IMG/VR virus record: IMGVR_UViG_3300010938_000115
Span: 1 to 29,240 of that record
Reading direction: 5' to 3' (one strand)
Source of the DNA: a virus
DNA length: 29,240 nt
Under the pieces are notes generated by a model. That model did no database searches and was not told the origin of the DNA. It was given only the letters and a program-made list of their open reading frames with translations. Below, piece by piece: positions 2,851 through 21,900 of the stretch (the first letter of the stretch is position 1; every line of letters begins with the position of its first letter). The position numbers and the translations under genes were made by a program.

Positions 2851-4830
2851 TTAATTGATTTTCCAGCTTGATGGACTGCGTTTTAACATCGCAAATCCCC
2901 AAGCCTCCAAACCTAATAACTCAAAAACAGTATTTGCCGTTGTTGAATAAATTTTAATCTGTAAAGCATATAACTTCTTATTGACTTTTAGATATTTTTT
3001 AATAACATCTGCCACAAAAACAGAGGGAGTATCGTTGGTATCGGAGAAAAGCATATCTGAAAAAAAGTCATCCCCCCAACCAGATGTGCCTAAAGTTGAT
3101 AAGATGGTGGCTGTAGCAAGCGTTGATATCTGTCCGTCTTTAGTAACCCCAACTACCTCAATCGTTGCCCCTCCTCTAAAAGAACCTAACTCTGCTATAA
3201 CCTCCTTTATTTTAGCAATAACTCTATAGTCTTTGTCAATAGGAATAAGAGGTGAGGTGTAAAGTTGGTAAAAATAACTGCCAAAATCAGAGGTATAACT
3301 TTCTGATAACTCAACCAGTTTATTTCCCGTTGGTGGAACTATCAAAAAGTGAGTAACTCCGCTACTATCAGTATATTCAAAAAAGTCCTTTGCTCCAAAA
3401 TCCCAATACCAAGTCCAGTTGTTTCGCTCCATATCAAAAATAGCAATCTTATACTCATTTGCACCAGAGGGAATTGAAAAATATATCCGTGGTGGGTTGT
3501 AATAACTAACGATATTTTCAACATATTGAGAGGGAATATCCTCATATTGATTTCTAATAGGTGCGGTCATATCATCATTTGATAAAACATTAAACATCTG
3601 TTGCTTGTTTCTTAAAGCAAAAATTCCTTTTTTATTAGCAAAGAAAATATTATCTAATACTTTAACCACTGATTTTGCCCCATCTGCCCCAGCCGCCCCA
3701 ACCAGTTTATATGCCGCAGGAACAACGGCTGTCTCGTTTCCTATGGTAACTGTGGTTAAATCAACTTGAAAAATCGTCCCATTTCCGTCAGCCGACTTAC
3801 ATAAAACGGTAATAATCGGGTCTCCTTTTCCTGTCCTGTAATGAGTAACTGCAACTGGCTTATTTTTTCCTCCTAACTCCAAATCAATCCACACTCCACC
3901 ATAAAAAGGTGAGAAGGCGGGATTAGTAAAGTATTGACCTGTGCCTGTGGCATATACCCGATACTCGTTATCAGGGTCACCTGTCCCCCAAAGTCTGTTT
4001 TGAGAGATTTCCAAAGAACCTAATTTTGGTCCGCCAGTTGTATTATCATCTGGCGTCTCAACATAGATATTGGCAGGATAGGTGACATTGCCATAGTCAT
4101 TAAAAGTGGTAGTTGTAGTTTCTGCGATTAAAACCTCTTCTCCATCAAACTCTCCCCAGTATATTTGATAACCATCTGCCCCAGTTACAGCCGTCCAGGA
4201 TAGAGAAACATAATTTGATGTGTCCCAATTGTCTCTGTGTTTATTGGTTGTTTTATTAACAGAAGGCGAGGGATTAGTATTACCGATTTTATTTGTTGCA
4301 ACAATTCTATAATAGTTATTATACGAACCTGTAGTTAAACCTGTTAGTGATCCAGTCGGAGCTGATGAGGGATCGGATATTGCGGTATATCGTGTAAGGG
4401 TGCTTCCATCATATACTGTTAATCTTTCGGTGCTGTTTCCTATAAAAAGTTTTCCGCCTATTTGAGCAAAGTAATATTTTTTTCCTGTTGTAAAAGTAAT
4501 AGAAGTTGATATTTTCGTCCAGCTTCCTCCGTCAGTTGATTTATAGGCATAGCCATCTGATGCGATAGCGACAATTTCCCTTATTCCTCCGTTATCAAAC
4601 TCGGTTGCCCCGTCTATATTAGAAGCACCAGAAATAGCCTCTCCATAATACGCTCTTCCTGGTCTTGTTTTCCATATCCCATCTTGAACTTGATAAAGAT
4701 TTCTAATATCAGGTGAAAAAATAGGTTTTAGGCGTCCAGGATTAATAAGGGTATTTGAACCACCTCTAAAACTGTCAATTTTAATTGACCAAGTCTTTAA
4801 GTTTGCTTGTTGTTCTCTTGGAACTATCAT
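2851..4830 (-). CDS. Tail tubular/nozzle-like protein (T7 gp12-type role) with Fn3-like insert
   Basis: This 659-residue beta-rich protein overlaps the upstream adaptor gene as ATGA, a tight pairing like the tail tubular A/B pair of T7-like podoviruses. The N-terminus has FRGGSNTLINPGRLKPIFSP and repeated short blades ending in phrases such as DGYAYKSTDGG and GGKLFIGN, suggesting a beta-propeller body. Residues about 155-260 read like a fibronectin type III insert (NYYRIVATNKIGNTNPSPS, then SWTAVTGADGYQIYWG). The later part includes FDMERNNWTWYWDFG and a membrane-free beta-rich C-terminus. No catalytic motifs were seen. The nozzle or stopper assignment rests on order, size and fold impression, not on a search. 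Confidence 0.6.
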   Translation of the reverse strand: MIVPREQQANLKTWSIKIDSFRGGSNTLINPGRLKPIFSPDIRNLYQVQDGIWKTRPGRAYYGEAISGASNIDGATEFDNGGIREIVAIASDGYAYKSTDGGSWTKISTSITFTTGKKYYFAQIGGKLFIGNSTERLTVYDGSTLTRYTAISDPSSAPTGSLTGLTTGSYNNYYRIVATNKIGNTNPSPSVNKTTNKHRDNWDTSNYVSLSWTAVTGADGYQIYWGEFDGEEVLIAETTTTTFNDYGNVTYPANIYVETPDDNTTGGPKLGSLEISQNRLWGTGDPDNEYRVYATGTGQYFTNPAFSPFYGGVWIDLELGGKNKPVAVTHYRTGKGDPIITVLCKSADGNGTIFQVDLTTVTIGNETAVVPAAYKLVGAAGADGAKSVVKVLDNIFFANKKGIFALRNKQQMFNVLSNDDMTAPIRNQYEDIPSQYVENIVSYYNPPRIYFSIPSGANEYKIAIFDMERNNWTWYWDFGAKDFFEYTDSSGVTHFLIVPPTGNKLVELSESYTSDFGSYFYQLYTSPLIPIDKDYRVIAKIKEVIAELGSFRGGATIEVVGVTKDGQISTLATATILSTLGTSGWGDDFFSDMLFSDTNDTPSVFVADVIKKYLKVNKKLYALQIKIYSTTANTVFELLGLEAWGFAMLKRSPSSWKIN

Positions 4831-5507
4831 TGTCCGATAATAAAGCCGTCATCGTAATCGAGCTCGGCTAAATTATAACTTTGATTAAATGGTTTTGTCT
4901 CGTTTTCAATAATCATATAATCCAAAGCCTGCTTGGCTAAGGCTTGATATTGAGCCACCTTATCATTTCTTAAATCCTGCTCATATAGTTGTCCTAATAC
5001 AAAGTAAACAATAAAATCGGGATTTAGCATCTCGGCAACATCAGTTGAGTTTGATAATTTAGTGGCTGTTTTATAATAAGAGTAGTAAATAGTCCCGTTT
5101 ATCGGATTAACAATATTTATTTTTTTAGAAGAGCCCCCGCCTGTCTCATAAAAGAATTTTGAGGCACTATTAATTTTATCTGTTTTAATTACATCATCTG
5201 GTCTTTTATAAACATAGTAAGTTTTATTGCTGTTTGTATCTTGAATATACAAAAAAGATGAGATAAATCGATAATCGGAGGGAGTTGAGTAGGATGTAGT
5301 TGAGGTAGTTGCTGTTTTATCTCCATCTGACGCATCAGGTAGATTTTTAAATAATTCTCTCCACCTGATATTTTCCTGCTCCCAGACATCTATTGCCGCA
5401 TTTACCAGTCCTTTTCTTAATTCATAATCCTCACTCCCCTCTGCTGGATAATCAGTATCCCCCTCGTATAAAAGGTGAATTTTGTTTAAGATTTCAGATA
5501 GTGTCAT
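4827..5507 (-). CDS. Head-tail adaptor/tail tubular A-like protein
   Basis: The protein is 226 residues from the ATG at 5507. An in-frame TTG two codons upstream lies inside the T-tract context and is rejected. The helical N-terminus (TLSEILNKIHLLYEGDTDYP, then LRKGLVNAAIDVWEQENI) is followed by a beta section and a helical C-terminus around NPDFIVYFVLGQLYEQDLRN. That pattern of early helix, dimension-checking beta core and YxLGxLY helix is common to podoviral gp11-type adaptors. It overlaps the tail-tube gene by ATGA. Its start codon lies directly after a hairpin plus T8 element, so expression probably requires read-through or antitermination. Function is inferred from order and overall pattern. 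Confidence 0.58.
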   Translation of the reverse strand: MTLSEILNKIHLLYEGDTDYPAEGSEDYELRKGLVNAAIDVWEQENIRWRELFKNLPDASDGDKTATTSTTSYSTPSDYRFISSFLYIQDTNSNKTYYVYKRPDDVIKTDKINSASKFFYETGGGSSKKINIVNPINGTIYYSYYKTATKLSNSTDVAEMLNPDFIVYFVLGQLYEQDLRNDKVAQYQALAKQALDYMIIENETKPFNQSYNLAELDYDDGFIIGQ

Positions 5508-5511
5508 ATAC

Positions 5512-5540
5512 AAAAAAAAGACAGGAGAACTTCCCCTGTC
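5512..5540 (-). terminator. Intrinsic-terminator-like hairpin with T8, directly before the tail adaptor start
   Basis: On the minus strand GACAGG (5540-5535) pairs with CCTGTC (5525-5520), with two further inner pairs and an A-C mismatch. It is followed at once by eight T residues (5519-5512) and then GTATATG, the start of the adaptor. A second perfect hairpin, TTCCGA/TCGGAA (5545-5561), lies just upstream. The promoter at 5581-5609 is upstream of both, so the element sits in the mRNA leader. It may also stop transcripts coming from the 1369-residue gene. Confidence 0.72.
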
Positions 5541-5580
5541 TACGTTCCGATTAGCTCGGAAAAGACTAACTTTTAATAAA

Positions 5581-5609
5581 ATAATACACCTCTTTTTTTA
5601 ACCTGTCAA
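5581..5609 (-). promoter_or_regulatory. Sigma70-type promoter for the tail adaptor operon
   Basis: TTGACA (minus strand, 5609-5604), a 17-bp spacer and TATTAT (5586-5581). The -35 box lies in the last codons of the upstream 1369-residue gene. The -10 box is followed by TTTATTA, the same discriminator seen at the promoters at 12203 and 19475. The predicted start is near 5574, giving a leader of about 66 nt that includes two hairpins and a T8. Confidence 0.7.
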
Positions 5610-9717: not shown

Positions 9718-10959
9718 TTATTGAGCTAATCCCAATTTTTTTCTTATTTGCCCAACTAATACTGGATTATAAAACTCGTATGAGGCTTGTGGTTGTCCTT
9801 GTAATCCTTGTAAAGCATCATAGGTTAATTCTGTTGGATTAAAATTTGCTGACTGGGATAGCTGTATTTTGTAATTTTGTAATTGGCTAACTCTATCCCT
9901 GACCCATTGGTCAAGACCCATTTTATACTGGTTGGCAGTCTGCTCGTAATAATTTGCCATTTGTAAAGCGTTTTGTAGCAAAGTTTGGTCAAGGTTATTT
10001 AGAGCATTCATCTTATCAAGCGGAGCATTTGCTTTTGCCTGTTCTATCTTAAATTTAAGGTCATTATAAGTATTACCAATCTCTGCCATTTTATCTGTTT
10101 TCCATTGCTCTATTTGTGACTTTTGAGTATCGTATGTTTTTTGGACATCTATTGTTTTTCTATCAAGCTCTGATAACTGGTCATTTGCTCCTTTAATTAC
10201 CTGTGCCTGTGCCCTTGATCCTTGTTTGGCTAAGGCGTATGGGGCAATAACTTGTGAGGCAGATGAAGAACCAGCCCCCATTGCTCCAAGTTGCATACCA
10301 GTTGCCTTCATTAAATTTCTTAAATTTTGAGCGATTTCTTCCATTCCAGTTTGTTTTCTTGACTGGATATCTGTTTTATAAGTTCCAAGTTGTTGTTCAG
10401 CCGCCTGTTTTTCTGTCCCTAACTGTCCAAGCATACTGTCAAACTGTTGACCAACATATCCTTGTTGTTCCTGTTGCATTTGTGGAACAAGTCCAGCTAA
10501 TTTATCAAGATTTGATAAATAATCATTAAATCCGCTTTCAATGTTAGACCTAATTCGGTTGTAATATTCATCTTGTGGAGATGGACCAGTATTTCCACCA
10601 GAATAAACAGGATCTCCGTTTGCGTTATAACCAACAAGCTTTTCTCCACGAGAATTAACCGATGGTGCACCCCCTCCACCCGTATTGGTGGTTTGAGTTG
10701 TTGGTTTTGATGTTGATGTTACAGTCGGACCATAAGGATTAAATCCTGTCCCTTGCTGATAATTAGAATAAAGTTTATTTGTTGATAAAGTATTAGCATA
10801 CGCTTGCGGTGTTGTTCCAATTGCCTGATAAACATTTGGATTGTTAATAAAGCTTGATTGGCCAGTATTTTTACCTAATAACAATTCTGTTACTCCGAAA
10901 TCTGGTATTTTAAATCCTCCAATACCCCAAGTTCCTTGAACTGAGTTGAAAAGTGCCAT
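9718..10959 (-). CDS. Internal virion-like structural protein, Gln/Ala-rich and helical
   Basis: This 413-residue protein has a low-complexity Thr/Gly/Asn/Ser N-terminal third (to about residue 130) containing a GGGG run. A long helical region (about 130-370) is rich in Gln, Ala, Lys and Glu, with a Gly/Ala/Ser hinge around residues 215-235 (MQLGAMGAGSSSASQV). The C-terminus ends with a short FYNPVLVGQIRKKLGL motif. Ten nucleotides separate it from the 1369-residue gene downstream, so the two are one transcription unit. Long Gln/Ala-rich helices beside a giant protein are typical of podoviral internal core proteins. A divergent promoter for the plus-strand gene at 10981 overlaps its first codons. 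Confidence 0.55.
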   Translation of the reverse strand: MALFNSVQGTWGIGGFKIPDFGVTELLLGKNTGQSSFINNPNVYQAIGTTPQAYANTLSTNKLYSNYQQGTGFNPYGPTVTSTSKPTTQTTNTGGGGAPSVNSRGEKLVGYNANGDPVYSGGNTGPSPQDEYYNRIRSNIESGFNDYLSNLDKLAGLVPQMQQEQQGYVGQQFDSMLGQLGTEKQAAEQQLGTYKTDIQSRKQTGMEEIAQNLRNLMKATGMQLGAMGAGSSSASQVIAPYALAKQGSRAQAQVIKGANDQLSELDRKTIDVQKTYDTQKSQIEQWKTDKMAEIGNTYNDLKFKIEQAKANAPLDKMNALNNLDQTLLQNALQMANYYEQTANQYKMGLDQWVRDRVSQLQNYKIQLSQSANFNPTELTYDALQGLQGQPQASYEFYNPVLVGQIRKKLGLAQ

Positions 10960-11461: not shown

Positions 11462-11656
11462 TTATAAGCTTTTAGCAATTCTGTTTCTTACTTTTTTCCA
11501 AAATATTTTTCCAGAAACTTTTTGCCCTGCCTCTTTTGAACCATACTTTTTAGCGGCTTTTTGGGCTATTTTATTAAACATTCCTGTCTTATAATTTCTT
11601 CCCAGTTTCCTAACCATTGCTTTTCCTCTTTTTCCTTTCGGTTTCATTTTAGCCAT
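11462..11656 (-). CDS. Small, very basic protein, possibly DNA- or RNA-binding
   Basis: 64 residues from the ATG at 11656, which has the AAAATATG context common here. An upstream in-frame ATG at 11695 would start inside the terminator stem and is rejected. About a third of residues are Lys or Arg, as in MKPKGKRGKAMVRKLGRNYK and KKVRNRIAKSL, with Gly between them and no acidic clusters. Such proteins in phages are often nucleic-acid-binding or minor virion components. It is the first gene behind the promoter/hairpin/T8 leader at 11677-11784, so its expression may depend on terminator read-through. The family was not recognised. Confidence 0.58.
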   Translation of the reverse strand: MAKMKPKGKRGKAMVRKLGRNYKTGMFNKIAQKAAKKYGSKEAGQKVSGKIFWKKVRNRIAKSL

Positions 11657-11676: not shown

Positions 11677-11730
11677 AAAAAAAAGGCAACCTCAAACAGA
11701 CAATATACTTGCCTGCTTTTTGGTTGCCTT
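11677..11730 (-). terminator. Intrinsic-terminator-like element in the leader of the small basic gene
   Basis: On the minus strand AAGGCAACC (11730-11722) pairs with GGTTGCCTT (11691-11683), with an inner hairpin CAGGCAA/TTGTCTG, followed by eight T residues ending at 11677. The first AAGG can instead pair with an upstream CCTT (11740-11737), giving a mutually exclusive hairpin at 11727-11740, which is an attenuator-like choice. The start codon is 20 nt beyond the T-tract. Confidence 0.75.
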
Positions 11731-11755
11731 CTTAAAAAGGAAAACCTATATATTA

Positions 11756-11784
11756 AATATACGAAAATAATTTACAGTTGTCAA
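11756..11784 (-). promoter_or_regulatory. Promoter for the small basic protein operon
   Basis: TTGACA (11784-11779 on the minus strand), 17-bp spacer, TATATT (11761-11756). The -35 box shares five bases with the -35 box of the divergent promoter at 11778-11806, so the two cannot easily be occupied together. The transcript runs straight into the hairpin/T8 leader at 11677-11740. Confidence 0.7.
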
Positions 11785-12202: not shown

Positions 12203-12231
12203 TTGACAAATAATTTTTTCCATACTATAAT
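12203..12231 (+). promoter_or_regulatory. Perfect-consensus promoter driving a non-coding RNA
   Basis: TTGACA (12203-12208), exactly 17 bp, TATAAT (12226-12231). This is a full-consensus sigma70 promoter and the strongest in the window. The discriminator TTTATTAG is shared with the promoters at 5581 and 19475. No plausible open reading frame follows for about 400 bp, so the product is taken to be RNA. Confidence 0.82.
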
Positions 12232-12237
12232 TTTATT

Positions 12238-12480
12238 AGTCGTGGGGGTAATTAGGGGATAGCGACTTAAAACAAGCCCTTATAGGTGTATACTGTTCTT
12301 GCCTGGTTCTAACAGATGAAAAAGAACGCTCGTATGCCAAATCTTTGAATAAGAGAAATAGGTTTATTAAGAGTATTAAGGAAAACACTCGTGAGTTTTG
12401 ATAGTTTCGCAAGGTGTCCATCCTGCTGAAATAGAGCAGGAAGGTTTTCTGAAAAACTATCCTATTATTGTCTTTCTTTC
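12238..12480 (+). ncRNA. Putative structured non-coding RNA of about 240 nt
   Basis: The transcript starts about 7 nt after a perfect promoter and has no credible gene on either strand. Stems seen: AGTCG/CGACT (12238-12242 with 12263-12267), GTTCTT/AAGAAC (12295-12300 with 12322-12327), and a small AAAA..TTTT hairpin around 12382-12399. At the 3' end is a two-tier hairpin with outer stem GATAGTTT/AAACTATC (12400-12407 with 12454-12461) and inner stem TCCTGCT/AGCAGGA (12421-12427 with 12435-12441). A T-rich stretch (12462-12489) follows and may end the transcript. It does not look like tmRNA, RNase P RNA, a group I intron or a tRNA. The exact ends are guesses. The intergenic stretch 12196-12594 holds this RNA, the G-rich tract and nothing else I can name. 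Confidence 0.55.
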
Positions 12481-12594: not shown

Positions 12595-13677
12595 TCAAGA
12601 GGATTTTATTTTCTCAAAAACTTCCTTCCATAAATGAATTTTGCCCTTTATTGTCCAGTCTTTTAATACCTCCTGTTTTATTATCTCGCCTGTTTTTAAT
12701 CTTTTTTCTTTATTTTCAATTAAATCTTCAAAACAATTTATCCAGTCTTTTACTGTTTTAGCAAAATAGCCGTTTTTTTTGTCTTTTATGATTGATAAAT
12801 ATGGTCCAACTGGGGAGGTTATGGTTGGCACTTGTGATATTCCATACTCCATAACTTTTATAGGCGACTTATAGATACTAAAATCATTCTCTTCTAAGGG
12901 AGCAACTCCAATATCCCAAAATGGAGAATATTTTTTATAAATCTCAATCCAATCATAAAAATCCACTTTTCCTTCTATGTGCTCAACGTATGGCAAACTG
13001 TCTAACTCGGTTGGCAAAAAACCAAAGATTTGAAATCTTACCTTTCCTTGATATTTTCCCAAGATATATGCCAAGGCAGAGTGAAATTCAGTAAACAGCA
13101 AATCACCAACGTGAGATGTCCCTCCTTGATAAACAATGGTAATAACATCATCCTCAATATGTTTTGCTGGTATATAAACCTCCTCATCAATTAAATTTGG
13201 TAAAACAAAGATATTTCCTTTCTCATTTATTTTTTTTAGTTCTTTTTTTAATCTGCTGTTTGTGACTGTTATAAATGGTAAATCATTTAATATAGCCTTA
13301 TAGTTTCCTTTATTTTTCATAACCTCATCATAAACAACATTATAAGGTCTAACGGTTAGAGGATTATCATCTAAGTCATAAACATACTTCATTCCAGTTT
13401 TTTTTGAAACAACCGCCATATAAGAGTAGGCGATAGGATTATGATAATAGGAAGAAAAAACAATGTCATATTCTCCAAGTTTAAGCCAGGCCTCATCTAC
13501 CTCCTGTTGTGTTGCTTTTTTATTATTTATTACTCCCTTTTGAATATCAATCTGCCAGTCTGTTATTTTTTTTAAGTTGTTTAAGGGATTAATAATTCTC
13601 CACCAGTCAACGGCAGAGGTTCTTGTTTTTTTCTCGTTTGGTATCGTGTATTTCGTCTCAATCCCTAAAATTTTCAT
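12595..13677 (-). CDS. Glycosyltransferase, GT4/GT-B type
   Basis: This 360-residue protein has GT-B architecture: an N-terminal half with YDLDDN (about 100-105), then VLPNLID (158-164), YQGGTSHVGD (183-192) opening the donor-binding half, and APLEENDFSIYKSPIKVMEYG in two parts (259-279). The last carries the conserved Glu and the K-x-MEYG motif typical of family 4/1 transferases, which transfer sugars from nucleotide donors. The start is one base after the stop of the upstream gene (TAATATG). In phages such enzymes may glycosylate virion proteins, modify DNA bases or change host surface sugars. Being inside the virion arm favours a virion or surface target, which is inference. Confidence 0.82.
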   Translation of the reverse strand: MKILGIETKYTIPNEKKTRTSAVDWWRIINPLNNLKKITDWQIDIQKGVINNKKATQQEVDEAWLKLGEYDIVFSSYYHNPIAYSYMAVVSKKTGMKYVYDLDDNPLTVRPYNVVYDEVMKNKGNYKAILNDLPFITVTNSRLKKELKKINEKGNIFVLPNLIDEEVYIPAKHIEDDVITIVYQGGTSHVGDLLFTEFHSALAYILGKYQGKVRFQIFGFLPTELDSLPYVEHIEGKVDFYDWIEIYKKYSPFWDIGVAPLEENDFSIYKSPIKVMEYGISQVPTITSPVGPYLSIIKDKKNGYFAKTVKDWINCFEDLIENKEKRLKTGEIIKQEVLKDWTIKGKIHLWKEVFEKIKSS

Positions 13678-15102: not shown

Positions 15103-16014
15103 TTATGCTGTCGCACCAGTTTTTACATTCAAAACCCAAGTAGAAATCAAAACTTTGGCAACATAAGCACCCGCCCAACCAATAGTTGAGTATCGGTCAG
15201 TTGGGTTTGAGGTATCGGACTCTGATGGAACTTTGACGTAAAGTCTTGGCACATCACCCGATAGATCGTATTTAGCAAAAGCGTTAGCACCATGAATGAA
15301 GTTTGAGTAAACAGTTACTGTTGAAGACTCAGTCTTCTGATTGGTAACGTTTACAAACCTAACTCCATATAAAGCACCAACCTCTCCAGCGTAAAGTTTT
15401 TTTACATCGGAGTATGTAGCGGCATTTACCCAAGTTGTATCACCTTTTATATCATATTCGGTGTATGGACCAATCTTACCAACAAAGTATCCATCTGGAT
15501 ATTTCATAGCTTTGTTTACTTGTAAGGTTCTTACAGCTTTTCTAACTTCAGTTGCCGACATAGTATCGGTTGCGGCGACGTCAGTTAAAGCAGATTTTCC
15601 ACCAGCCAGTTGAGCTGTAGCACCAGAGTATAAAGCGTCTCTATCAAGAGTATCGATTGTTTCACCCATATTTTGTCCAAGAACCTCAACTTTTTCAGTT
15701 GCGTCCTTGTCAATAGAGGTTAATTTCAAGAGTTTGCTGATTTTAATAACATTTCCATACTCAGCAAGTTGAGCGGTGACTTGGTCTGCGGTTAAATTAA
15801 CCTCTGATGGGTTTGAGCCTTCGGATAAAGGAGTTGTAACAGCACTCAAAGGAGAGTATCTATTCCATTGAATCGTTTTACCCTCTCCTTTTGGATGGGT
15901 GTTTTTTTGAGCTCCTTCACCGTGCATTATCTGGTATTTTGCTCTTTCAAGAAACTTACTTTCGTAAAATGTTTTTACCTCACCTGATAAACCAGATGTA
16001 GTTTGGACTGCCAT
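15103..16014 (-). CDS. Major capsid protein, N4-gp56 family
   Basis: The 303-residue protein matches the N4-gp56-type capsid pattern. The N-terminal FYESKFLERAKYQIMHG is followed by QKNTHPKGEGKTIQWNRYSP, LSAVTTPLSEG, the ADQVTAQLAEYGNVIKISKL segment, and LGQNMGETIDTLDRDALYSG. The C-terminus carries VYSNFIHGANAFAKYDL and GWAGAYVAKVLI. It forms the icosahedral shell. A scaffold-like gene precedes it by 31 bp and it has one of the few clear SDs (GAAAGGGGGTGA, 9 nt from the ATG), suiting high expression. Length is on the short side for the family. Confidence is high from several motifs and from order. Confidence 0.9.
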   Translation of the reverse strand: MAVQTTSGLSGEVKTFYESKFLERAKYQIMHGEGAQKNTHPKGEGKTIQWNRYSPLSAVTTPLSEGSNPSEVNLTADQVTAQLAEYGNVIKISKLLKLTSIDKDATEKVEVLGQNMGETIDTLDRDALYSGATAQLAGGKSALTDVAATDTMSATEVRKAVRTLQVNKAMKYPDGYFVGKIGPYTEYDIKGDTTWVNAATYSDVKKLYAGEVGALYGVRFVNVTNQKTESSTVTVYSNFIHGANAFAKYDLSGDVPRLYVKVPSESDTSNPTDRYSTIGWAGAYVAKVLISTWVLNVKTGATA

Positions 16015-16023
16015 ATTATTTTT

Positions 16024-16035
16024 TCACCCCCTTTC
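16024..16035 (-). promoter_or_regulatory. Capsid gene ribosome binding site
   Basis: GAAAGGGGGTGA on the minus strand with a 9-nt A/T spacer before the ATG at 16014. Apart from one G-U position it is complementary to the extended 16S tail and to the small RNA loop at 22186-22197. Confidence 0.75.
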
Positions 16036-16045
16036 CTTGAAACTT

Positions 16046-16894
16046 TTAACTTTTAATCAGCTTTTTTTCAAGGATGGATGCCACTTTACCAGGATTATCC
16101 CAAAGGTCTTTTTTAAGCTCCTCGATTGAGACCTCCTGTTGTTGTGGCTGTAATGAGGGTGATACTGCCGAACTGCTAACCTGGTCAGTTAGTTTTTGAG
16201 CAACCTGACCTGATAGTTTTTGTTTTAATTTTTCAAACTTTTGTTTTACAAGCTCATACGCTTCCTTTGGACGAACCGCCCCAAGAAAAACTGGCTGGCC
16301 GTCTAAACCCAAGATAAAGTTATTTTTTTCGTATAAATCTTTTACTTCGTTTGAAAAATCTTCATCTTCCATCATCGGAAGCTTTTTTACTTCTTCCAAT
16401 TCTTGAACATGGGATTGAATTGTCTGCTTGTACTGTTCCTGCTTTTGCTTTAAATCAAGCTCTTGCCTGACCTCGCTTTTAATCTGCTCTCGTAGGGCCT
16501 GCTCTCTTGAGGCAATTCTTCGTTCAAGCTCATCAGGTGCTATTTCTGTCTCACCAGCTTGTAAAATCGGTGGGATTTGCGGATTATCCGTCCTTAAAAA
16601 TTCAGGCGGTATCTCACCCCTCTGCACCGTTTCCTGCTCTTGCTTTTTTTGAGTTAGGGTCTGCAAAAGCGTTTCAATCCCCTGTTTTTTATTTTCAAGA
16701 TTTTTAACTCTTTTATCAATTCTTGATGGTTTTTGTGTTTCGGCTTCACCCTCTTTTTGTAAAGGTTCCTGTGTTATACCTTCTGTTTTCGGTTTTGTTT
16801 CGGTATTAACTTTTAAATCCTCTTGAGGTTTAGTTGTTTCCTCTGGCGATGAGGTGGTGGCAACCTCTTCCACCTTTTTTTCTTCGTCTGCCAT
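16046..16894 (-). CDS. Capsid scaffold-like protein
   Basis: This 282-residue protein is dominated by Glu, Lys, Gln, Thr and Pro. The N-terminal 60 residues are disordered and acidic. A coiled-coil-rich middle follows (KRVKNLENKKQGIETLLQTL, then ELERRIASREQALREQIKSE and KQEQYKQTIQSHVQELEEVK). The C-terminal 60 residues contain VSSSAVSPSLQPQQQEVSIE and a final helix ending KKLIKS. That composition, length and position directly before the capsid gene are what tailed-phage scaffolding proteins show. It would be expelled or degraded on maturation; no protease domain is seen. Confidence 0.75.
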   Translation of the reverse strand: MADEEKKVEEVATTSSPEETTKPQEDLKVNTETKPKTEGITQEPLQKEGEAETQKPSRIDKRVKNLENKKQGIETLLQTLTQKKQEQETVQRGEIPPEFLRTDNPQIPPILQAGETEIAPDELERRIASREQALREQIKSEVRQELDLKQKQEQYKQTIQSHVQELEEVKKLPMMEDEDFSNEVKDLYEKNNFILGLDGQPVFLGAVRPKEAYELVKQKFEKLKQKLSGQVAQKLTDQVSSSAVSPSLQPQQQEVSIEELKKDLWDNPGKVASILEKKLIKS

Positions 16895-16945
16895 ATGTTT
16901 TTAAATAATTTTTAACTAACCATTTAAGGATTGGTCGTCCGCTCC

Positions 16946-16966
16946 CTTGCTCTTTAAAAGAACAAG
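16946..16966 (-). other. Hairpin in the gap before the scaffold gene
   Basis: On the minus strand CTTGTTCTT pairs with AAGAGCAAG around a 3-nt loop, nine pairs with one G-U. A T6 lies before rather than after it, so it is not a normal terminator in this direction. The 82-nt gap 16895-16976 shows no good promoter. It may be an RNA-processing site between the portal and capsid segments. Confidence 0.35.
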
Positions 16967-16976
16967 AAAAAAGCCT

Positions 16977-17243
16977 CTATCGTTTAAAGACTTCCTTTTT
17001 GTCCTTTAATATCGGGTTTCCCTCATCATCTACTCCTACTAAAACTTTATTTATCCCAACATAAAATCCGTGTCTGAATTTACAGCTCTTACATTCAAGC
17101 CATATTCCCTTTTGAACCCATCGATGTTTTGAAAGTGCTTGTTTTTTAGCCTCCGCTCTTATCTCATCTAAATCAAACTCATAAATCGACTGCCCCAATA
17201 TCAACTCCTCTTTCGATTTGTTCTCCTGTTTTTCTGGCTTCAT
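16977..17243 (-). CDS. Small hypothetical protein with CxxC and His, between portal and scaffold
   Basis: 88 residues with a charged N-terminus. The core is SKHRWVQKGIWLECKSCKFR followed by HGFYVGINKVLVGVDDEGNP. His40, C51, C54 and H58 could bind one metal ion, like a small zinc knuckle. It overlaps the preceding gene by 65 bp, long for this genome, but the internal motif organisation supports it as real. Small zinc-binding proteins between portal and capsid genes occur in other phages; the role is unknown. Confidence 0.65.
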   Translation of the reverse strand: MKPEKQENKSKEELILGQSIYEFDLDEIRAEAKKQALSKHRWVQKGIWLECKSCKFRHGFYVGINKVLVGVDDEGNPILKDKKEVFKR

Positions 17244-17579: not shown

Positions 17580-19400
17580 TTATCTGTTTATAATTTCATA
17601 AAACAATCTTTTTTGATCCTCTGGTAGGTTTGCTATCAAAGGATTTTCGTTTTGTGGTTGTGGTTGAGGTTGAGCCTGTTGTGGCATCCCCTCTCCCATA
17701 CCTTGTTGTTGTGGCATTTGAGCCGTCCCCATAGCCTGGGGCTGAGTTTGGGCATTATTAACTGTTAATGCCTCCTTCGGTGCTTCTTTTATAATCTTGT
17801 CATACCCTTCTACTCCAGCTGTTGCTATAAATCTTTTAAGAAGTTCTGAAAAATCAATCTCAACTGAACCGTATTTTGCCTTTCCCTGCTGGGCTACCTG
17901 CTCCATAAAACCAGGTAGTTTTAGGAAAAAGCCTAAAATAGAAGTTAAGTTTTGATTTTCAATCATCTCATCCTGTTTCATTGTGGATGAGGCATCAATA
18001 AAGAATTTAACCGATAAGTTTTTAATGTCTTTGTTTTTAATCTTAATCTTCCCTCCCTCACCGCTTTCGTATAAATCTAAAATATCAGGATACTGCTCTT
18101 TTATCATATTAAACTCATCACCGAAGATATCAAACTCAATATCAGCTTCTTGTTTATGAGTTAGAAGGTCAAGAAACCTGTCATAAATCTCTGATATTGC
18201 CTGCTCTAACATTTTTCTGTCAAATGAAGTGTTTAATGTTATAAACATCTGTTGCATCTTCAAAGCCTCTGGTGTTTTTCCCTGTGCTGGTTCAACTGAA
18301 GATGATACAGTTGTGTCAGTTGTGCCAAGAGAAGATAATAAAGCCCCCTTCAATACTCCGTATAAAGAATTAAATGTTTGAAGCGGTGCGGGTGAGAATT
18401 GCTCCTGTGTTATAGCGTTTGGATTTGGATTTTTCAAAACCCATACTGCTCCAGGTGATAAAGAGAAAGATGGCATATGAACGTCAGTTGGATAGATTTT
18501 AGTTGGCGGATAAAGATGTTTTTTTAAGGCATCAAGCGATAGATTAACAGTTGAATTTAGTGCTTTTTGCTGGCTAATGTTTCTGTCATACTCGGATGTT
18601 CCAAAATAATTATCAAGTGTTGGATAGCATACTTTTGAAACAATTGGTAGTTTTCCGTTCTGATGAGGATTTTCAATATCTCTTAAAATCACCCTTGCCT
18701 GTCTTGAGAAGGTAATCCAGCGTTTTGGAGTATATAAGGTAATAAGTTCGTATTGGTCTTTATATAAATCGCTATCTTCTCTTTCTTTTGTAGTTGATGT
18801 ATCTCTTTCATCTGTTTTATTCTTTTTTCCTTTCTCAATAACTTTATCAATATTTTTCCAGTATTTTAATCCCTTTCTTTTTTTCAAGAAATCCTCTGCA
18901 ACATAAGATAAAACAAAGTAGCGGGACATATCATTTGTTGATATAACACCAGGCTCGGGTATCCCTAACTTTGGCGGGATTAAAAAGAAGTCTGGTCCTG
19001 TATAACCTTCCTTTACAACCCAGTCAACTAAAACGTCCATTTTTCCGTATACTAAAGATAAAAACTCCATAAGCCAAAACTTTGTGTAGATATCAGCCTG
19101 TGAGTTGGCGTTGGGGATAATATAGTGGTCTAAGATTAAGTTTAGGAAAACTCCTTTCCCTTTATCCTCTTTTGATAAAACTCTAACAACACCTGTTGGC
19201 ATCTTTGCCATAACTTGATTAGCTCGTCTTATTAAAGACGTCATTAAGGTTTGGTCTAAAACCTGTGATTTTAAAATTCCTTTTCCACTATCTATTATTT
19301 TGTTTTTAAGAAAGTCTTCTTTCTCGTCAAAGGAAGAAAAGATATTGAAGTAAGCCTGTTTGTCGCTTTCAAATTGTTTTAGGATTTTATCTATGTCCAT
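17580..19400 (-). CDS. Portal protein
   Basis: 606 residues from the ATG at 19400; an in-frame TTG two codons before lies in the terminator T-tract context and is rejected. The N-terminal half is helical. The middle has SKVCYPTLDNYFGTSEYDRN and QQKALNSTVNLSLDALKKHL, then SLSPGAVWVL and SSSVEPAQGKTPEAL, a typical portal clip/stem region. The C-terminal 60 residues are a Gln/Pro/Met-rich tail (MPQQQGMGEGMPQQAQPQPQ). It forms the ring through which DNA is packaged. Order (terminase, portal, scaffold, capsid) supports this. Its start follows a promoter, two hairpins and a T8, suggesting leader control. Confidence 0.82.
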   Translation of the reverse strand: MDIDKILKQFESDKQAYFNIFSSFDEKEDFLKNKIIDSGKGILKSQVLDQTLMTSLIRRANQVMAKMPTGVVRVLSKEDKGKGVFLNLILDHYIIPNANSQADIYTKFWLMEFLSLVYGKMDVLVDWVVKEGYTGPDFFLIPPKLGIPEPGVISTNDMSRYFVLSYVAEDFLKKRKGLKYWKNIDKVIEKGKKNKTDERDTSTTKEREDSDLYKDQYELITLYTPKRWITFSRQARVILRDIENPHQNGKLPIVSKVCYPTLDNYFGTSEYDRNISQQKALNSTVNLSLDALKKHLYPPTKIYPTDVHMPSFSLSPGAVWVLKNPNPNAITQEQFSPAPLQTFNSLYGVLKGALLSSLGTTDTTVSSSVEPAQGKTPEALKMQQMFITLNTSFDRKMLEQAISEIYDRFLDLLTHKQEADIEFDIFGDEFNMIKEQYPDILDLYESGEGGKIKIKNKDIKNLSVKFFIDASSTMKQDEMIENQNLTSILGFFLKLPGFMEQVAQQGKAKYGSVEIDFSELLKRFIATAGVEGYDKIIKEAPKEALTVNNAQTQPQAMGTAQMPQQQGMGEGMPQQAQPQPQPQNENPLIANLPEDQKRLFYEIINR

Positions 19401-19404
19401 ATAC

Positions 19405-19435
19405 AAAAAAAACCACGCCTTTAATAGTGCGTGGT
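19405..19435 (-). terminator. Intrinsic-terminator-like hairpin with T8, directly before the portal start
   Basis: On the minus strand ACCACGC (19435-19429) pairs with GCGTGGT (19418-19412), followed by eight T residues, then GTATATG, the portal start. A second hairpin, GGTGTA/TACACC (19462-19457 with 19445-19440), is immediately upstream. This is the same architecture as at 5512-5561. The promoter at 19475-19503 lies upstream, so the element is in the portal leader; it may also end the terminase transcript. Confidence 0.75.
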
Positions 19436-19474
19436 ACTGGGTGTAATCGCAAAGACTACACCTAACCTAATAAA

Positions 19475-19503
19475 ACTCTATCAAAATATTTCTTTCTTGT
19501 CAA
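19475..19503 (-). promoter_or_regulatory. Promoter for the portal/capsid operon
   Basis: TTGACA (19503-19498 on the minus strand, overlapping the stop of the upstream gene), 17-bp spacer, TAGAGT (19480-19475), then TTTATTAG. The -10 box is weak but the discriminator matches those of the promoters at 5581 and 12203. The predicted leader is about 68 nt and contains two hairpins and a T8. Confidence 0.6.
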
Positions 19504-19847
19504 GGGGAATATATCTTCTCGTAAAAACTATCCCAGTAAATCCCCGTGATAAAGCCACCTTTTAAGTCAACTAAAAAATGAAGTTTACAGTTTTGTTTGT
19601 TTTTTTTGGCAATTGCTATTTTCTCTGCCAAGTCTTTTACTGCTTTTTCTTGGTCTTGCTCTGATTTTCCATATGTTATTGTCTTCCACCCCTTAAACTC
19701 TGCTTTTTTAATAGATTTTCTATGGATGTTAAGTTTTAGGTTGAATACTCCATACTCCACTCCATATGATATAGCTAATAAGTCAAGGATAAACTGTTTT
19801 GTTTCGGGTGAAACATTTTTTAATATTTCAGTTAGTTTATCGTCCAT
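19500..19847 (-). CDS. Hypothetical protein between terminase and portal
   Basis: 115 residues from the ATG at 19847, one base after the terminase nuclease stop (TAATATG). An alternative start at 19871 would overlap that gene. The protein has a helical N-terminus (DKLTEILKNVSPETKQFILD) and a C-terminal alpha/beta part with KTITYGKSEQDQEKAVKDLA and LHFLVDLKGGFITGIYWDSF. No family is recognised. It is the last gene before the portal leader. Confidence 0.6.
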   Translation of the reverse strand: MDDKLTEILKNVSPETKQFILDLLAISYGVEYGVFNLKLNIHRKSIKKAEFKGWKTITYGKSEQDQEKAVKDLAEKIAIAKKNKQNCKLHFLVDLKGGFITGIYWDSFYEKIYSP

Positions 19848-19848
19848 A

Positions 19849-20514
19849 TTAATAAAATCCCTGCTCATCAAATAACTTTTTATGTAAATCCTCTATCTGG
19901 TCATAATATACCTGTGCCTGCTTTTCTGTTACTGGCTCTTTAGCAAATAAAGAGACTTGATAAGAAATTCCCAAACTCATAACTAAATCGTCCTTTGCTC
20001 CCTTATCAGCCTGTGCTTTCCAAGATGATGAGGTTTGAACAACGACAAAAGAGTATAACTCGTTTATTGTCTCCTTGTCATAAATTCTTATAACTTTGTT
20101 ATCAATCGCCTGTTTTAAGTCCTGAAGCATCTTTGGTCTTGTTGATGATGAGGTAGTCCAGCCGTATTGAACCGCCTCTGGTGGATCAATTCTTCCAAAT
20201 GAGGGCATCTTAAATAAATCGTATTTATTAAGTCTATTTAAAGCCGCAAGCCTGTCCATCTCAAATGCTCCACCGTTGTTTCGCTCATATGCGACAACTG
20301 GTTTAATTCCTGTCCTGTCATATATTTTCTCTAAAACTGGAACAAGTAGATTGGTAAATTCGGTAGTTGTTATAGGTGAGTGATAAACTAATGGAACATC
20401 CAGTTTTGTTTTTGAAAGAAACTGGGCGGCAGTATAATCACCACCGCCTGATGCGGTGTCAACGCCAACAACAATGAATTCTCCTCGCTCTATTTGTCTA
20501 AACTGTTTGAACAT
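19849..20514 (-). CDS. terL: Terminase large subunit, nuclease part (separate ORF)
   Basis: 221 residues forming the RNase H-fold nuclease of a TerL, as a separate reading frame. Motif I is VGVDTASGGGDYTAA (Asp19), motif II VAYERNNGGAFE (Glu77), motif III KGAKDDLVMSLGI (Asp175/176). This domain cuts the concatemer at packaging. Its ATG at 20514 overlaps the end of the ATPase frame by 17 bp, and the frame is +1 relative to it. It has its own TATATG start context, so it may be a true split subunit made by coupling. A programmed +1 shift at GTT-TAG or a sequencing or assembly frameshift are alternatives. Confidence 0.85.
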   Translation of the reverse strand: MFKQFRQIERGEFIVVGVDTASGGGDYTAAQFLSKTKLDVPLVYHSPITTTEFTNLLVPVLEKIYDRTGIKPVVAYERNNGGAFEMDRLAALNRLNKYDLFKMPSFGRIDPPEAVQYGWTTSSSTRPKMLQDLKQAIDNKVIRIYDKETINELYSFVVVQTSSSWKAQADKGAKDDLVMSLGISYQVSLFAKEPVTEKQAQVYYDQIEDLHKKLFDEQGFY

Positions 20515-21340
20515 ATATCAAATCATTTTTAATTGGTTCTTTTATGTTATCCAAATACCATTTTAATGCCTGCTTATCAAAATAGTTTTGTCCACTTGAG
20601 ACAAAAGCATCAATATCAGTCTCGGGATACTCCTGGCTGTAAAACTCTTTTAACTCCTGTTTCTTTTGATTTAAGAAGTCCTGTGAATAAAAATCAGATG
20701 CTTTGAAAAATAATGGCTTAAATGGTCGCTCTTTCCTTTTACACTCTTCCCAGAATGTTTTGAAGAAATTGAAGCCGTTACTAGTTGTCTCAATAAAAAT
20801 CTTCCCTTCTGGAACTACTGCCTGGAGGGCAGATCGTAATATTGCTTCAGGATCAGGATAGTAGGCAAACTCGCTGGCGTGTAGTCCTGTAAGACTTTTA
20901 CTTCTTCCTACCTCCTTATTCTCTGCTGTTCCTATTTTGTAAGTTGAGTTTATTGCTTCGTTATAAAGTTCGTATTTTGAGTTGTATTTCAGGTTTAGTT
21001 TTACTTGGTTTATTTCCTCAAATGACTTGATGTAAAACTTCACTCTTGACAGTAAATCCTCCGCATTATCTGACTTATCAGCAATAACCATAGAATAAGA
21101 GTTATCTTTTAGCAAAAAATCAGTTGTAAAAATAGCAAGAATAATTGATGAAAATCCTAACTGTCTTGATTTTAAGATTACATCTCTTCCCGTTGCTTTG
21201 TTCAAAATAAAATCTTCCTGTATTTTCCAATGGTTTGTATCCTCATAAAATCTTTTAATTGTGCCGTCTTTGGCAACAAGCATAAAATTATCCTTGATGA
21301 AGTTGACATATATATTTGCTTTCTCTCTAAAGTTGGCCAT
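20498..21340 (-). CDS. terL: Terminase large subunit, ATPase part (separate ORF)
   Basis: 280 residues comprising the packaging ATPase. The Walker A-like KSRQLGFSS is at residues 57-65, VIADK near 86, LTGLHASEFAYY (150-161) gives the Walker B/catalytic Glu157, and IETTSNG (183-189) the coupling motif. It powers DNA translocation through the portal. A complete TerL would continue into the nuclease; here the frame stops after DLIYVQTV and the nuclease follows in another frame. The gene starts at an overlap with TerS. Identification is strong; the split is the odd point. Confidence 0.87.
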   Translation of the reverse strand: MANFREKANIYVNFIKDNFMLVAKDGTIKRFYEDTNHWKIQEDFILNKATGRDVILKSRQLGFSSIILAIFTTDFLLKDNSYSMVIADKSDNAEDLLSRVKFYIKSFEEINQVKLNLKYNSKYELYNEAINSTYKIGTAENKEVGRSKSLTGLHASEFAYYPDPEAILRSALQAVVPEGKIFIETTSNGFNFFKTFWEECKRKERPFKPLFFKASDFYSQDFLNQKKQELKEFYSQEYPETDIDAFVSSGQNYFDKQALKWYLDNIKEPIKNDLIYVQTV

Positions 21341-21871: not shown

Positions 21872-21900
21872 ACTATAACAAAGTATATCGTTGTTGTCAA
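21872..21900 (-). promoter_or_regulatory. Main leftward promoter (virion arm)
   Basis: TTGACA (21900-21895 on the minus strand), 17-bp spacer, TATAGT (21877-21872), with the ATG seven bases beyond. It is back to back with the rightward promoter at 21947; the 46 bp between them, and both boxes, are where a regulator choosing between the arms would bind. Confidence 0.75.

Follow-up and report, generated by a model that had tools for sequence, protein, structure and literature searches.

The window, the whole 29,240-base viral record IMGVR_UViG_3300010938_000115, derives from an uncultivated phage and has a G+C content of 34%. The minus-strand genes encode, among others, the terminase parts, the portal, the major capsid protein, an SU10-type adaptor and tail-like proteins, while the plus-strand genes include those for replication. 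Among cultured phages, the portal protein has only weak matches (Arthrobacter phage MissAmericana, 22.6%; Microcystis phage MaAM05, 24.2%), and relatives of the capsid protein are found at 31–34%, for example in Bacillus phage Page. A possible clue to the host comes from relatives on a Saccharibacteria MAG contig (L032). Relatives were found in 4 of 379 genomes of the phylum to which the L032 genome belongs, and one further relative lies in a Vermiphilus MAG. The terminase large subunit (19849-21340, minus strand) seemingly consists of two ORFs, one ATPase-like and one nuclease-like; two ORFs are also present in G008 and a single ORF in G007 and G010.

The leader of the portal gene is located on the minus strand between a small gene, here called gene X, and the portal gene. 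It may be considered in terms of the following features:

19500..19871, minus strand: gene X, encoding a small protein and lying immediately before the portal leader, with a profile match in most portal loci
19475..19503, minus strand: portal late promoter, with -35 TTGACA (19503-19498), a 17-nt spacer and -10 TAGAGT (19480-19475)
19465..19467, minus strand: GGT, 5' strand of the proposed antiterminator outer helix, invariant in relatives
19440..19462, minus strand: hairpin 1, GGTGTAGTC/GATTACACC, from folding and covariation
19412..19435, minus strand: terminator hairpin, ACCACGC/GCGTGGT, predicted from sequence; its foot ACC (19435-19433) also pairs with GGT 19467-19465
19405..19412, minus strand: T8 tract, a T8 in 8 of 8 relatives
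17580..19400, minus strand: portal ORF, with its ATG at 19400-19398, 4 nt 3' of the T-tract; PHROG head-tail adaptor/portal matches and a distant portal match

The promoter, the element TTTATTAG, the two hairpins, the T8 and the GTATATG that the initial annotation had described at the portal gene were all found in place on the minus strand. TTTATTAG directly follows the -10 TAGAGT and precedes hairpin 1. The GTATATG after the T8 carries the portal ATG, and there is no space for a second promoter between the T-tract and the ATG. Compared with shuffled sequences, the leader folds with a z-score of -4.3.

TTTATTAG was rejected as a hairpin-specific signal. Since it also follows a perfect promoter at 12203 (plus strand) and is lost elsewhere, it seems to be a feature of the promoter or start site. 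At the plus-strand location (12203-12480), TTGACA-17-TATAAT is followed by TTTATTAG and by about 240 nt with no clear gene, possibly a noncoding RNA. The region was not found in G004, G005 or G011, and it has no Rfam match.

Gene X lies between the terminase and portal genes and is predicted to fold into two helix-plus-beta-hairpin units (pLDDT = 81). A search of the predicted fold against the PDB identified no match (best E 0.17). Single homologues gave sub-threshold Pfam matches to DUF2292 and to antiterminator Q (PF03589, E 0.039). Gene X was rejected as an antiterminator on account of these sub-threshold matches, the missing PDB match and its presence in clades with no T-tract leader; it is a candidate regulator by position only.

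Late promoters with predicted terminator leaders in the window

The initial annotation had claimed two matching leaders, one at the portal gene and one at 5512-5609. Both are present, but the window holds three, the third at 11784-11677. The features of the adaptor leader (5609-5505) and of the third leader are as follows:

5581..5609, minus strand: adaptor late promoter, TTGACA-17-TATTAT, from sequence
5563..5566, minus strand: GTCT, 5' strand of the proposed antiterminator outer helix, adaptor leader, pairing with AGAC
5545..5561, minus strand: hairpin 1, adaptor leader, TTCCGA/TCGGAA, with covariation (AU/UA/CG and CG/UA pairs)
5519..5541, minus strand: terminator hairpin, adaptor leader; AGAC (5541-5538) at its base is also able to pair with GTCT (5566-5563)
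5512..5519, minus strand: T8 tract, adaptor leader, from sequence
4827..5507, minus strand: SU10-adaptor-like tail/neck gene (PF24175, E 6e-12)
11756..11784, minus strand: third late promoter, TTGACA-17-TATATT, from sequence, absent from the initial annotation
11722..11746, minus strand: proposed antiterminator, third leader, GGTTTTCCTTTTT/AAGAAGGCAACC, overlapping the 5' arm of the terminator
11677..11731, minus strand: nested terminator hairpin and T8 (11684-11677), third leader, z-score -6.7
11462..11656, minus strand: first ORF of the third late unit, 64 aa, basic, kept in 4 relatives

Order and spacing are common to the portal and adaptor leaders, as had been noted, and in both the -10 and the terminator stem are separated by 39 nt. 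The adaptor leader folds with a z-score of -3.7 relative to shuffles. The arms of the nested terminator in the third leader are AAGGCAACC...GGTTGCC; its proposed antiterminator, taken as an isolated 27-nt hairpin, is not significant alone (z-score -1.2). The 64-aa ORF starts 20 nt after the T8 and is positioned ahead of tail-like genes.

Fixed criteria were applied to the minus strand of the window: a hairpin of -9.5 kcal/mol or lower with a T6, a promoter matching at least 10/12 positions upstream and an ORF of at least 60 aa downstream. All three strong hairpin and T-tract elements had both the promoter and the ORF, and none was obtained in 80 shuffled sequences made from four genomes. This control rules out chance as the explanation of the layout.

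Promoters matching at least 10/12 positions near an ORF start were also listed, with "late" assigned by gene function and not by timing. A terminator precedes the first codon at all three late promoters of the window and at none of the four non-late start-proximal promoters (10946, 22297 and 25472 on the plus strand; 21900 on the minus strand), where the -10 is only 6–27 nt from the ATG. The pattern repeats in G004 and G005: all late promoters, and none of the other promoters listed, have a terminator ahead of the ORF. Two further promoter matches, at 13550 and 13469, lie inside a glycosyltransferase gene and are probably due to chance. At 21900 (minus), 25472 (plus) and 10946 (plus) the -10 is only 6–8 nt from the ATG, and the mRNAs from these promoters are probably leaderless.

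Conservation in close and distant relatives

The portal leader is kept in eight close relatives, in which TTGACA is invariant and the -10 is TAGAGT, TATAGT or TACATT. The portal hairpins are paired in 100% of the aligned cells, and the terminator stem and the T8 are invariant. Compensatory changes, which the initial annotation had proposed to look for across relatives, were found in hairpin 1 of both leaders: two double-compensated pairs (GC to AU and UA to CG) in the portal set of eight, and two pairs changed on both sides among four sequences in the adaptor set. The covariation score was matched in 9 of 500 shuffles for the portal set and 23 of 500 for the adaptor set, where both sets are small and the controls moderate. 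Together with distant relatives that have the same layout and unrelated stems, these pairs support the earlier suggestion of selection on structure.

A portal profile search of viral contigs returned 80 loci. An automatic rule, which called for a strong hairpin with a T-run of 5 or more and an ATG no further than 15 nt away, identified a portal leader at 26 of the 57 loci surveyed. Three more (L073, L074 and L081) were added by eye; the rule had missed them because the folding program placed the T-run into a stem. The portal leader is found at 29 of 53 portal genes, with 29–40% identity across lineages, and the layout is shared by distant lineages while the stem sequences are unrelated. On a tree of the 53 portals, the 29 leader-bearing members need 6 changes compared with a shuffled mean of 17.8, which is consistent with an old trait that was lost several times. 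Two peculiarities of portal genes were encountered: that of L013 (4896-7826, 976 aa) is interrupted by an apparent intein, and that of G397 (15344-17131) has one in-frame TAG that may be a mutation, an error or recoding.

The comparison bears on whether the hairpin and T-tract are a plain terminator of the upstream gene beside an independent promoter. Such a terminator could block read-through from the terminase operon; however, in all portal leaders of the T-tract type the promoter comes first and the terminator after it. A terminator followed by a promoter, the arrangement that the initial annotation had set against its own reading, was seen at no portal gene examined, and in relatives it occurs only before another gene (G011 13196, G013 7419), which serves as an internal contrast. 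A plain terminator is highly improbable as an explanation.

The tree also contains a sister clade of 15 portals with no T-tract, an absence that weighs against the attenuator favored below. A T-tract is absent from the portal leader of the sister clade with L089, L096, L100, L102 and L112. In L089, L100, L102 and L112, the predicted fold pairs the region of the TTG start (z-scores of -3.2 to -5.4), which might represent the same control acting on translation. In another clade (L065, L066 and L068-L072), CATAGGAGAGGGACTCCACGATTCTAA is common upstream of the portal gene, before AAAGGAG, and a CTCC is able to pair either with an upstream GGAG or with the SD sequence. This choice of pairing is a possible translational switch.

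Structured leaders of this kind, in some of which the start codon can be paired, would also suit a 5'-UTR element for mRNA stability or SD-free translation, in which the hairpin guards the 5' end, the U-rich stretch before the AUG binds ribosomes and no termination takes place. The ATG that abuts the T-tract with no Shine-Dalgarno sequence points the same way. However, T7-8 placed right after a hairpin is what typifies a terminator. The major capsid gene and other genes that are probably highly expressed lack a hairpin and T-tract start, and in several leaders the ATG is 24–32 nt further on, in some of them with an SD-like motif. An element of this type is very unlikely to account for the leaders.

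Terminator leaders also precede other late operons in the whole contigs G006, G007, G008, G392, G393, G394, G395 and G396. The similar late leaders include:

G006: 17155, 19684 and 21945
G007: 7380, 16363 and 23270
G008: 5098, 7510, 16057, 21699 and 24453
G392: 21689, 11026 and 4030
G393: 4019, 6584, 8904, 10554 and 24694
G395: 21775, 18051 and 9656

The promoter match is weak at G007 23270, at G008 16057 and 24453, and in G396. The portal leaders of G394 to G396 have no T-tract, which is present at other operons of these phages. The leaders at 10554 and 24694 of G393 have an identical 38-nt terminator hairpin and a different hairpin 1. Between 22643 and 23391 of G006 there are several hairpin and T-tract elements in about 750 nt, none directly before an ORF, perhaps a structured RNA region.

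A predicted alternative fold of the terminator foot

When the transcript was cut before the 3' arm of the terminator and folded again, the first bases of the terminator were predicted to pair upstream, usually as an outer helix around hairpin 1. The pairs are GGU/ACC in the portal leader, GUCU/AGAC in the adaptor leader and GGUU..CCUUU/GAAGGCAACC in the third leader; other lineages have, for example, GUUC/GAAC, UCUUU/AAAGA and GGGU/ACCC. At least 3 pairs between the terminator foot and the upstream segment are present in 30 of 35 leaders, leaving five with no clear antiterminator. This predicted pairing, which resembles a classical antiterminator, is newly recognised here; the initial annotation had not considered a competition between the outer helix of hairpin 1 and the terminator base.

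In a swap test, a leader's own foot fits its own upstream segment better than feet from other leaders do (0 of 20,000 permutations; median 0 of 500 with one leader per lineage, 20 lineages). Against dinucleotide-shuffled upstream sequence the foot pairing has a z-score of 4.8, or 2.9 with one leader per lineage. The leader set and the 7-nt foot behind these values were chosen after the pattern had been seen, a bias that the controls only partly remove. A broader statistic, the first one used for pairing, has a mean rank of 0.35 against an expected 0.5, in the same direction. The portal helix is only 3 bp (GGU/ACC) and alone is no better than with shuffled upstream sequence, and for this reason the antiterminator claim concerns the leader set. 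In the G006/G393 group, the antiterminator taken by itself shows no significant covariation (77 of 500 shuffles).

As in an attenuator, a promoter is followed by a leader with an intrinsic terminator upstream of the gene. An alternative fold exclusive with the terminator is seen statistically across the leaders and weakly, with 3 bp, at the portal gene. The full-length fold prefers the terminator in every leader; the default state would thus be off, and a factor must be assumed.

A constant leaky terminator that only lowers the output or noise of the late promoters would agree with the wide range of terminator strengths, about -10 to -33 kcal/mol. Neither the late-only distribution nor the maintained alternative pairing is expected from a mere damper, however, and we regard unregulated attenuation as quite unlikely.

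Proposed late control and its counterparts

The reading that we favor, and consider reasonably probable, is that each late operon has a transcription attenuator, off by default, which a putative factor relieves by stabilising the antiterminator. Each virion operon would be transcribed from a strong sigma-70-type promoter, with the first 60–75 nt or so of the RNA serving as the attenuator. By default, an intrinsic terminator with U7-8 would form directly before the first codon and keep the structural genes off. Alternatively, the foot of the terminator 5' arm would pair with a short upstream segment, usually around hairpin 1, shortening the terminator stem and parting it from the U-tract. A late-infection factor, in the simplest case a phage RNA-binding protein, would stabilise the antiterminator on all late leaders such that the head and tail genes are switched on together.

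The promoter, hairpins, T-tract and start codon, along with their conservation and late-only distribution, can be read directly from the DNA. The case is strongest when three lines are taken together: restriction to late promoters, deep conservation despite unrelated stems, and the alternative pairing. From these we infer termination, regulated antitermination and the factor. The common switch of head and tail operons put forward in the initial annotation is supported in part: the restriction to late promoters, and the similar leaders that several late operons have in other phages, favor shared late control, and a regulated switch is predicted from the sequence.

A broader reading, which we offer tentatively, is that a large group of uncultivated phages, possibly in Patescibacteria, uses an attenuator regulon abutting the start codons of the virion operons as an early-to-late switch read by a putative factor, and that one sister clade has replaced the portal terminator by a fold in which the start codon or ribosome site is concealed. 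The timing of late genes in these uncultivated phages seems undescribed in the open-licence literature searched, and no description of such leaders in phages was found there. If the broader reading is true, a whole phage group would use RNA attenuation at many operons in place of one late activator or Q-type site, and the conserved leaders would be ready reporters for finding the factor. Unrelated stems with the same two exclusive folds also make a good test case for structure-first RNA discovery.

Attenuation with a common factor was proposed because stabilisation of an outer helix is the described action of LicT and ANTAR proteins. By analogy, the leaders would work like LicT/RAT or ANTAR leaders and fall outside every known family tested; Rfam gave no match at the gathering score and only chance-level matches below it. 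In the RAT leaders of LicT, SacY and BglG, an imperfect upstream stem-loop shares bases with the terminator foot, and its stabilisation leads to read-through (PMC3369936). In the phage leaders, likewise, a predicted upstream helix and the foot of the terminator have bases in common. Unlike RAT leaders, they precede virion operons, their terminator abuts the start codon and they have no Rfam match. No BglG/LicT-like protein was matched among the window proteins scanned with Pfam, where early-region proteins were scanned with PHROGs only and the record may be incomplete. ANTAR leaders (nasF, eut) present hairpins P1 and P2, with A1/G4 in the loops, before a terminator, and in eut they occur at four genes (PMC3369936). 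Shared with these are a hairpin with an overlapping terminator and repetition before several operons of one regulon. In contrast to the two hairpins with A1/G4 loops, the phage leaders have one hairpin before the terminator, with various loops (5 nt in the portal and adaptor leaders).

A rival that we consider unlikely is processive antitermination of the lambda Q/AlpA or HK022 put type. Here RNA polymerase would be altered close to the promoter, by a factor or by the leader RNA itself, and would then pass the leader terminator and those further on, with the alternative pairing being secondary. In lambda Q, 21Q and AlpA systems, a late promoter is followed by a promoter-proximal intrinsic terminator and a -10-like pause element is needed (PMC9371919). 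The late promoters of the window have this layout; however, each of several late operons has its own terminator leader, and the pairing of the terminator foot is not predicted by such a mechanism. A Q-type pause element seems unlikely: across 43 leaders, the sequence transcribed first after the -10 shows no enrichment of NANNNT/TANNNT, with NANNNT at single positions only. No Q-family protein was matched in the window, which is weak evidence because Q families share no sequence similarity. Leader motifs shared within a phage, such as CGTAACC...GGGCGACC in G006/G393, would suit a loading site.

The HK022 put sites, located at early genes, consist of two stem-loops within about 70 nt downstream of the promoter, both of which form the antiterminator (PMC9378689). 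The two-hairpin RNA of about 70 nt just 3' of the late promoters resembles putL. Unlike put sites, which have no terminator directly after them, the phage leaders precede late genes, and their second hairpin is itself the terminator, followed by U8.

Compared with the attenuator that we favor, the mycobacteriophage SAS and ESAS offer a further parallel, as elements that recur immediately before selected start codons within a group of phages. The SAS is a fixed 13-bp sequence with an SD core, and the ESAS repeats do not support RNA pairing (PMC3203893), whereas in the leaders described here the sequence varies and the pairing is kept.
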